From: an uncultured Anaerolineae bacterium
GTDB lineage: Bacteria > Chloroflexota > Anaerolineae > Aggregatilineales > Phototrophicaceae
Assembly (NCBI GenBank): GCA_937995825.1
Contig: CALKJO010000002.1
Location: 186,001 to 250,000, forward strand
Length of the DNA: 64,000 bases
Direction of reading: 5' to 3'
In this document: piece after piece, positions 41,523-44,374 of the stretch
How positions within the stretch are numbered: the first letter of the stretch is position 1
How the letters are laid out: each line of letters opens with the position of its first letter
Translations under genes and position numbers: made by a program
Notes under the pieces: model-generated
Databases searched by the model: none
What the model was told of the DNA's origin: nothing
The model's input: the letters and a program-made list of their open reading frames with translations, nothing else

Positions 41523-42809
41523 ATGGTCACCCTCATTATCGGGGCAGGGACAGCAGGGTTAGTGGCGGCGCGCGGCTTACATGATGCAGGTTCACCTGTG
41601 ATCGTGCTGGAAGCCCGTGATCGCTGCGGTGGTCGCGTTCACACCGACCGCGCTTTCGCGTCTCACCCGGTTGAGCTGGGCGCGGAATTCATTCACGGCG
41701 ATCTCGCCCCGACCTGACTGCTGGCGCAGCGGTTCACGCTGCGCACCCTCCATTGGACGAAAACCGATGAGTCGCTGGTTCGGCTGGCGGATGGGACGCT
41801 ACGGACGATGGCGGAGGCGCGCCGGCTTCACCCGGATTTCGACATCACGCGCAGTTGGAATTTTCCGCCGGAGCTGCTCGCTGCGCACCCGATTGCGCCG
41901 TTCGATCAGCCGCTCGACGCCTATCTGCGCCGCCTCGGATTCAACCCCGATCAGCTTGAGTATGTCCGCCGCAGTTACGCCAACGCCGCCGGCGAGTCGA
42001 TCGACCGGCTGAGCGCGCGCGCTGCGCTGGACGACTGGGCGGATACGCGCTTTGGCTCTGGGGACTACCGCATCCTTGACGGCTACGACACGATTCATGC
42101 GCGCTTGGCAGAGGGGCTGGACATCCGCTTCCATGCCGTCGTCACGGAGATTCACTGGAGCAGGTCTGGTGTGCGCGTGCTGACGGCGGATGAGCGTGAG
42201 TTTGAGGGCGCGAGTCTGATCATCACGCTGCCGCTGGCGGTGCTGCAAAGCGGGCATGTCCGCTTTGAACCGCCGCTGCCCTCGGACAAGCAGGCAGCAG
42301 TTGCGGCGCTCAACATGGCTCCGGCGCTCAAGCTGATCTACCGCTTTGGTGAACCGGTGCTGCCGCGCGAGATCGCCGCGCTCTACAGCGCGCAGAGTCC
42401 GCCGATGTGGTGGACGCCCTCGTATGGGCATGACGCGGTCGATGGGCAGGTCTGGACGGCGTTCGTGACCGGCGATTACGCCCGTCAGATGCGCAGTCTG
42501 GGCGAAGCCGGGGCGCTCGATGCCGGGCTGCGGACGCTGCGCGCTGAGACTGAGCGCGGCGATCTTCAACCTGTGTCCGCGCGCTGGATCGACTGGGCAA
42601 GCGACCCGTTCGCGCTCGGCGGCTACAGCAGCAAACCGCCCGGAGCCTACGGCGCGCGCGCGGTGCTGGCGCAGCCGACTGAGGATGTGCTGTACTGGGC
42701 GGGCGAAGCGACCGCCTCCGGCGATGCCGCCGGCACGGTTCACGGCGCGTATTTGTCCGGCGTGCGCGCAGCGCAGGAAGTGTTGGCTTTAGGCATTCAG
42801 CAGGGCTGA
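41523..42809 (+). pseudogene. FAD-dependent amine oxidase interrupted by one in-frame TGA
   Basis: One continuous frame of 429 codons, except TGA at codon 65 (41715-41717). Upstream: GAGTAGL dinucleotide fold, [17 protein letters not shown] (FAD-binding Glu/Arg-Gly-Gly-Arg) and [14 protein letters not shown]. Downstream: LLAQRF immediately in frame, then a flavin amine oxidase core ending YWAGEATASGDAAGTVHGAYLSGVRAA. Relatives usually carry a Trp a few residues after the AEFIHG motif, so TGA probably replaces TGG. No frameshift, no other stop, and coding composition is unbroken after the TGA, so it is either a recent nonsense mutation, a consensus error or read through. Restart at 41808 alone would lack the FAD-binding fold. 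Confidence 0.8.
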
Positions 42810-42857: not shown

Positions 42858-43619
42858 ATGGTCGCGTACACGACCGAACAACACGATGGTAGACAGACCG
42901 CCGCGACCTCAACGGCGCGGCAGATCGTCATTCGGAACACCACCCCTGAGCATGTGCAGGGGATGGATAAGCTGTCGCAGTTGGTTTACAACTACGACCA
43001 TTTCTCGCGTGTCGATGAATTTCTCAGTCAGATTCGCATCTTCCCTGAAGGGCAGTTCGTCGCCCTTGATATGACCATCCCCGATGCGCCGCAGGTCGTC
43101 GGTTACACGGCGTCCATGCGCATCAACTTCGATCCCGCTCGCCCGCGCTTCAAGCCCTGGGCGGATGAGACGGGCTACGGTTGACTGACCACCCACAACC
43201 CACACGGCGAGTGGATGTACGGCGTGGAGACATGTGTGCATCCCGACTATCGCGGGCAGGGCGTCGGCGGCAAGCTGATGGACGCGCGCTTTACGCTGCT
43301 CAAACGCCTGAATCTGCGCGGCATGATCGCTGGCAGCATGATCATGGACTATCACAAGGTCGCCGATCAGATGTCGCCGCAGCAGTATGTCCGCGAGGTG
43401 GTGGCGGGCGTCCGCTTTGACACCAACCTGTCCAAGCAGCTCCATAAGGGGTTCAAGGTGCTGCACTTGATCCCGGAGTACGAATATGACCCCCGCTCGC
43501 TCAACTGGGCGGTGGCGATTCGCTGGGACAACCCCGATTATCGACCCGAATACAAACCGCAGACGCGGATCGCGCCGTTCATTCAGCCCGCACAGGGGGC
43601 GCGCCTGGCGGCGCGGTGA
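42858..43619 (+). pseudogene. GNAT-family acetyltransferase-like protein interrupted by one in-frame TGA
   Basis: 254-codon frame with TGA at codon 109 (43182-43184); AAGGAG precedes ATG 42858. Before the stop: FPEGQFVALDM and VVGYTASMRINF; after it: LTTHNPHGEWMYGVETCVHPDYRGQGVGGKLMDARF, holding the acetyl-CoA-binding R-G-Q-G-V-G-G-K loop, then the NLSKQLHKGFKV segment. The tandem paralog at 43628 reads TGDGWLTTHDP where this gene reads TGYG-stop-LTTHNP, so TGA stands exactly for Trp. The C-terminal half is intact. Either a recently disabled duplicate or a leaky UGA. Confidence 0.85.
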
Positions 43620-43627
43620 AGGACACC

Positions 43628-44374
43628 ATGACTGCCGATCACAGCATTCAGATCGTGCCGAGCGCGGCACGCTATGCCGATGAGATGGAACGGCTCTACC
43701 GACTGGTCTATGGCGATGATACTCCAGACGCCGCCGATGTCTTCACCGCCGCCATGTTCCGCCGCCACCTGGAGATTTTCCCGGAAGGGCAGTTCGTCGC
43801 GCTCGATACGGCGCTGCCCGAAGGTGAGCAGGTCATCGGGCTGACGTGCAGTATGCGGATCGCCTTCGATCTGGCGCATCCGCATCTAGAGTCGTGGTAC
43901 AAGACCACCGGCGACGGCTGGCTAACCACCCATGACCCAAACGGCGAATGGCTGTACGGCGTCGAGTCGTGCGTCCATGCCGATTATCGCGGGCAGGGCG
44001 TCGGCGGCACGCTGATCGATGCCCGCTTCGACTTAGCGCGCCGCCTCAATCTGCGCGGCATGGTGGCAGGCAGCGCGCCGATGAGCTATTACCGCTACGC
44101 GGACGCGCTGACGATTGAGGACTACATGCAGGGCGTGGTCGAAGGCAGGTACTTCGACATCAACACCAGCAAGCAGCTCCGCAAGGGCTTTCGCTACACG
44201 GGCGTGCTGATCCCGAATTACATCATCGACGAAGAAGCGCGGGGCTGGGGCGCGCTGATCGTCTGGGAGAACCCGTCGTATAGCGCGGCGCGGATGCCGC
44301 AGATGGATGTGACGCTGCCGCTGATGTATTCTGTGACTGTCCGCCCGACTCAGGTGGTTGGACGGGGATTTTAA
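43628..44374 (+). CDS. GNAT-family acetyltransferase-like protein (intact paralog)
   Basis: About 248 aa. Same fold as its neighbour: FPEGQFVALDTALPEGEQVIG, GDGWLTTHDPNGEWLYGVESCVHADYRGQGVGG (acetyl-CoA loop), then ARRLNLRGMVAGSAPMSYY, VEGRYFDINTSKQLRKGF and LIVWENP. The DIN-x-SKQLRxGF block resembles the acetyltransferase half of fused GNAT/carbon-nitrogen hydrolase proteins; here the hydrolase half is absent. Substrate unknown. GTG 43616, overlapping the previous stop, is an alternative start; ATG 43628 has AAGGA close by. Tandem duplication with 42858. Confidence 0.85.
   Translation: MTADHSIQIVPSAARYADEMERLYRLVYGDDTPDAADVFTAAMFRRHLEIFPEGQFVALDTALPEGEQVIGLTCSMRIAFDLAHPHLESWYKTTGDGWLTTHDPNGEWLYGVESCVHADYRGQGVGGTLIDARFDLARRLNLRGMVAGSAPMSYYRYADALTIEDYMQGVVEGRYFDINTSKQLRKGFRYTGVLIPNYIIDEEARGWGALIVWENPSYSAARMPQMDVTLPLMYSVTVRPTQVVGRGF

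Follow-up and report, generated by a model that had tools for sequence, protein, structure and literature searches.

Conserved in-frame UGA-CUG sites as probable read-through codons in an amine oxidase–acetyltransferase operon of Chloroflexota

A GNAT-family acetyltransferase gene of an uncultured Anaerolineae bacterium (Chloroflexota) is interrupted by an in-frame TGA at the very position where its tandem neighbour encodes tryptophan. This raises the question of whether the codon is an error, the mark of a decaying gene or a stop that ribosomes pass. The window analysed here comprises 64,000 nucleotides (contig CALKJO010000002.1, positions 186,001 to 250,000). The interrupted gene, GNAT 1, is located on the forward strand at 42858..43619. 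Its ORF 42858-43184 is terminated by the TGA at 43182-43184, which corresponds to codon 109, and the same frame continues past it to a terminal TGA at 43617-43619, yielding a read-through protein of 253 amino acids that includes the GNAT domain (Pfam Acetyltransf_7/Acetyltransf_1). The tandem paralogue GNAT 2 (43616..44374, forward strand), which is 51% identical to GNAT 1, has no such stop; in its sequence TGDG-W-LTTHDP the Trp is encoded by TGG at 43919-43921, and the next codon is CTA. In the alignment, the TGA of GNAT 1 sits on the Trp column. The sequence-only reading, which had claimed on the basis of the paralogue that the stop occupies a Trp position, is therefore borne out.

The AlphaFold model of GNAT 1 (pLDDT 88) has a GNAT fold, in which the Trp position immediately precedes a core strand that itself lies ahead of the acetyl-CoA loop. 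According to this model, a product of 108 amino acids would be without both that strand and the loop. In the fold comparison, the nearest structures were CurA-type GNAT-like domains and other acetyltransferases, with SSAT not being singled out.

The conservation of the stop was surveyed by searching the read-through GNAT protein against 101 related genomes, after which contigs of named genomes were added. Each GNAT orthologue from the same genus and family has a single in-frame TGA, at an identical position. In total, the TGA occupies one column in 37 distinct copies from 34 loci, approximately 46-60% identical to the window protein. As the assemblies were made independently, this sharing goes far beyond chance and rules out, for practical purposes, an error of sequencing or assembly. 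The sequence GGN-TGA-CTG is found in all 37 TGA copies, while close relatives without TGA have TGG (24), TAT or TCG at this column, so that the residue is mostly Trp and never Cys. The named TGA-bearing records are Chloroflexota MAGs, several of them labelled Anaerolineae or Aggregatilineales; the few titles that name other organisms probably reflect mislabelling. The contigs of L110, L133 and L134 (record titled Pleurocapsa minor) and of L119 (titled Bacteroidetes) carry Chloroflexota-type genes, and these records are probably mislabelled MAGs or contamination. Separately, a distant GNAT paralogue (37%) in the genome of the window (G000:C16:236303-236944) gave a match reported with one internal TGA.

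A GNAT tree was built without the TGA column, with moderate support. It places 35 of the 37 TGA copies in one group (SH-aLRT 85), which also contains one TGG and one TCG copy, and GNAT 2 in the Trp clade. The remaining two TGA copies are found among the Trp tandem partners, in genomes already holding another TGA copy, which indicates that gain or conversion of the TGA recurred.

Purifying selection acts on the gene beyond the stop. In the four closest TGA-sharing pairs, dN/dS values are 0.02-0.16 after the stop and 0.05-0.30 before it. The downstream half does not evolve neutrally, and the earlier claim that the gene is preserved past the stop holds for the 253-residue frame with its GNAT domain. 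These data bear on the simplest alternative, an isolated nonsense change in a pseudogene or a sequencing error. Automatic annotation would give that verdict, and in-frame stops in bacteria have been reported to be widespread and mostly short-lived, with a dN/dS of approximately 0.66 around in-frame TGA (PMC7918605). However, the sharing of the TGA by 34 loci at around 50% protein identity, the purifying selection past the stop and the fixation of CTG beside the TGA leave this explanation with a practically negligible probability.

The codon that follows the stop is as constant as the stop itself. TGA-CTG (codons 109-110, 43182..43187) is conserved in 37/37 GNAT copies, with CTG directly 3' of TGA in every case. 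CTG makes up 50% of the other Leu codons in these genes and at most 71% at other conserved Leu columns, and in non-TGA relatives with Leu at this position it is used in 22 of 45. The resulting enrichment of CTG next to TGA is significant if shared ancestry is ignored (Fisher p 3e-8). Elsewhere near the GNAT stop, third positions vary freely. When the upstream gene and its remnants, described below, are added (29/30), the presence of CTG beside TGA is not explained, from these sequence comparisons, by Leu codon use or by ancestry of the residue.

A conserved stop could also divide the gene, with UGA as a true terminator and a second start producing a separate C-terminal subunit. An ATG does occur 33 nt past the stop in the window and in 17/37 copies. 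However, the other 20 copies have CTG (18/37), CTC or TTG at this codon (+11), so that no start codon is conserved there among the 37 copies. Trp paralogues also often have Met at this position, which indicates that the ATG occurs independently of the stop. Moreover, the ten linker codons between the stop and this position keep their amino acids while their third positions vary (pN 0.18 versus pS 0.49 over codons +1 to +10), as expected if they are translated in frame; the part from +2 to +10 (43188..43214, forward strand) has the pattern [TS]TH.P.G.W. The amine oxidase described next likewise has no common restart codon after its TGA, and a split gene is very unlikely. A frameshift or hop was also considered and is unneeded, the frame and residues after the stop continuing unchanged.

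The gene directly upstream, the first of the operon, contains its own TGA-CTG. It encodes a flavin amine oxidase of the LSD1/polyamine-oxidase-like type (41523..42809, forward strand; 428 aa with TGA as Trp), with LSD1B, 6-hydroxynicotine oxidase and polyamine oxidase as best PDB matches. Its read-through site, GCCCCGACC-TGA-CTG (A-P-T-stop-Leu), spans 41706..41720 on the forward strand, with the TGA at 41715-41717. A two-sided coding scan for in-frame stops, covering 2.35 Mb, or about two thirds, of the same genome, window included, retrieved only GNAT 1 and this adjacent oxidase as convincing TGA-CTG candidates. The oxidase TGA is conserved in 17 full-length loci and in 13 decayed leader remnants, and the codon after it is CTG in 16 of the 17 full-length loci and CTT in one. 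In-operon homologues with at least about 54% identity have one TGA each, and a few similar oxidases of other genomes (e.g., G042, G024 and G020) have none. Past the stop, the closest oxidase pair shows a dN/dS of 0.12. The TGA column corresponds to an invariant Trp, encoded by TGG in outgroup homologues. In these outgroup oxidases the following codon is variable and mostly specifies E, R, D or A rather than Leu, which indicates that CTG was gained together with the TGA, for a reason other than the residue it encodes.

In other Chloroflexota, Trueperaceae and Deinococcota (L138-L168), a GNAT gene and a flavin amine oxidase gene also adjoin, in reversed order and with no stops. These stop-free neighbours indicate that the GNAT and oxidase genes have long been associated.

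At 13 loci, all that is left of the oxidase is a short, decayed ORF that retains the site. These leader ORFs keep GCNCCNACN-TGA-CTG, with A-P-x-TGA-CTG present in 13/13 (A-P at -3/-2). Comparison with intact sister species in the GNAT tree puts the number of separate oxidase losses at about eight. The 15-nt core has a per-base identity of 0.86 among 10 remnants, versus 0.39 for the flanks, and outside the core one pair of remnants evolves neutrally (pN 0.52 and 0.54 versus pS 0.61 and 0.34). The A-P-T codons differ in their third bases. From the TGA to the GNAT start, 13 stops occur in the read-through frame of the remnants versus 36 and 40 in the other two frames; in most of them the first read-through-frame stop is no more than about 25 nt away from the GNAT start, and in two the read-through frame continues in frame into the GNAT gene. 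A Ser codon at +19 past the leader TGA is also kept in 12/13 decayed leaders (e.g., L121, L122 and L108), with a variable third base. The survival of the leader after loss of the enzyme suggests, from these comparisons, an on/off gate for the operon.

The site may also change its host sequence. In G036 (L125:4091), codon 109 of the GNAT gene is TGG, and the ORF has V-P-T-TGA-CTG 76 codons upstream of it, in a variable loop that would not be expected to contain Trp; here the gate seems to have moved. In G034 (L117:475), a decayed first GNAT holds TDYG-TGA-CTG, and the second GNAT, which follows it, is intact and has TCG at the Trp column. In G015, the GNAT with TGA comes first and the oxidase, located downstream of it, has TGG. 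From such arrangements, what is kept seems to be a stop codon at or near the operon start, whichever sequence carries it. The site statistics given above are only partly corrected for ancestry; the case made by the independent losses and moves does not need such a correction.

The leaders also recall arrest peptides, and a tnaC-like logic has been considered, in which a small molecule makes ribosomes stall at the leader UGA, with little read-through there, and read-through matters only in the enzyme copies. TnaC is a precedent for a bacterial leader whose UGA serves to detect a metabolite (PMC8429421). Like tnaC of the tryptophanase operon (PMC8429421), the 13 remnant leaders are short upstream ORFs with a conserved C-terminus before the stop, located upstream of putatively catabolic enzymes, and the result would hinge on events at UGA. 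TnaC also stalls with Pro near its UGA, free Trp inhibiting RF2 action (PMC8429421), and here the ORFs end in a conserved A-P-T whose varying third bases indicate that the peptide may matter. On the other hand, tnaC stalls (PMC8429421), whereas here the frame past UGA is kept open, CTG is fixed even in the remnants and UGA is found within intact enzymes as well; neither a fixed CTG nor an open frame is needed for stalling alone. Furthermore, the GNAT TGA-CTG follows G-[DY]-G, a different nascent peptide. Arrest without much leader read-through is unlikely, though it keeps a real share of the probability.

Read-through requires something to decode the UGA. A conserved in-frame UGA is what a selenoprotein would show, the codon encoding selenocysteine, and several relatives do possess SelB and tRNA-Sec. 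However, both are absent from six TGA-bearing genomes (G000, which is that of the window, G003, G007, G009, G010 and G014). At either site, the homologues examined have Trp, Tyr, Phe, Ser, His, Gly, Arg, Thr or Gln, but never Cys, and the UGA of G036 sits in a variable loop. No SECIS-like conserved hairpin follows the UGA in the 37 sequences: RNAalifold detected no conserved downstream structure better than in column shuffles (z of about +0.4 to -1.1). Selenocysteine is highly improbable at these sites. Searches for known RNA families across the operon gave sub-threshold matches only. A-to-I editing of the mRNA, turning UGA into UGI, was considered too, but there is no supporting hairpin.

A genome-wide reassignment, or a suppressor tRNA, by which UGA would simply mean Trp, would agree with the finding of UGA at the Trp columns of two genes. 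However, UGA is the stop of 919 of the 1,695 predicted genes (54%; 2.35 Mb of the genome of the window), and the scan of that sequence yielded essentially this operon only. RF1 and RF2 are both present and intact, and the prfB genes of these genomes have no internal stop. The tRNA-Trp is ordinary: its anticodon is CCA, it has G24, and its anticodon stem comprises five pairs. Among the tRNA loci examined, none had a UCA anticodon. UGA reading by a tRNA-Trp with a 4-bp anticodon stem is a described system (PMC13092985), but the unpaired 27:43 was not found in the tRNA-Trp of G000, whose stem (ACGGT/ACCGT) pairs at all five positions. Judged by the sequence covered, reassignment is scarcely credible. 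With selenocysteine, reassignment and pseudogene set aside, UGA read-through is left, most likely as Trp, and reading by the near-cognate tRNA-Trp(CCA) is the simplest and most likely explanation consistent with these gene contents.

Regarding the signal itself, UGA-CUG also serves as the apparently ordinary terminator of about six genes in the same genome, so the hexamer alone may not suffice and the nascent peptide or other context probably contributes. An avoidance of UGA-CUG as terminator was looked for and is unsupported, with 7 cases seen, GNAT 1 included, versus about 9.8 expected. A search of the 101 genomes with GCNCCNACNTGACTG gave about one background match per genome besides the operon, as assessed with a reversed-pattern control, which makes the motif unfit for a blind search for further cases.

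The best explanation is that the in-frame UGA is very probably a functional, conserved read-through codon, with UGA-CUG gating an operon of the oxidase and one to three GNAT genes in a Chloroflexota lineage. As the comparisons among loci show, UGA and CUG are both kept at each of two separate sites, selection maintains the two enzymes at full length beyond the UGA, and the frame past it is open even in leaders without an enzyme. In the proposed mechanism, a fraction of ribosomes would decode UGA, most likely as Trp, through the ordinary tRNA-Trp(CCA), which would outcompete RF2. UGA followed by CU would act as a weak terminator, with A-P-T or G-[DY]-G in the nascent chain possibly assisting. 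The remaining ribosomes would terminate, and their fragments of 64 or 108 aa would lack the catalytic parts. In the leaders, read-through would let ribosomes get to the GNAT start and would control the downstream gene via translational coupling or the prevention of polarity; this role is proposed because the upstream site is kept as a leader ORF whose frame often ends near the GNAT start.

The signal that sets the level of read-through might be polyamines or Trp/RF2 status, a speculative guess that the enzyme families permit but do not show. Equally speculatively, the amine oxidase and the acetyltransferase could form a catabolic pair. The more ambitious form of the proposal is a tuned UGA-CUG read-through at tandem sites, with a level set by a metabolite and a portable gate that survives the loss, decay and replacement of its host gene; we regard it as evenly balanced between right and wrong.

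The programmed frameshift of prfB, the gene for RF2, uses UGA-C as a weak terminator and sensor. The sites described here share with prfB a bacterial UGA followed by C, but they involve no frameshift and lie in genes for metabolic enzymes. In fungi and animals, UGA-CU is a core motif of read-through (PMC4207609). The fungal and animal UGA-CU(A) cases resemble this operon in the short UGA-CU 3' context and in a functional, conserved read-through product (PMC4207609); in contrast, the present sites are bacterial, have CTG instead of CTA and lie inside the enzyme core of two adjacent genes in one operon, rather than adding a C-terminal tail. In E. coli, Trp is the main residue inserted at read-through UGA (PMC11126739). 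The leaky UGA of E. coli, Salmonella and Bacillus is comparable, as the leakiest stop with Trp mainly inserted, but those cases are low-level errors or short-lived nonsense changes (PMC11126739; PMC7918605), whereas this UGA is fixed across many genera and the protein depends on it. Antizyme, with its polyamine-controlled +1 frameshifting, is another UGA recoding in a gene possibly concerning amines (PMC4505036); here, however, the frame does not change, and both polyamine control and the substrate are only guesses. The literature searched contained no description of this operon and none of read-through in Chloroflexota.

Conserved read-through without selenocysteine is barely documented in bacterial chromosomal genes. 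In-frame stops of this kind are normally filed as pseudogenes or errors, and annotation pipelines discard the genes that carry them. Dozens of species nevertheless keep a UGA in two adjacent enzymes and in the leaders left by one of them. These operons offer a natural test bed for the choice of the bacterial ribosome between RF2 and tRNA-Trp, for UGA-CU as a read-through signal across domains and for metabolite control at a stop codon.
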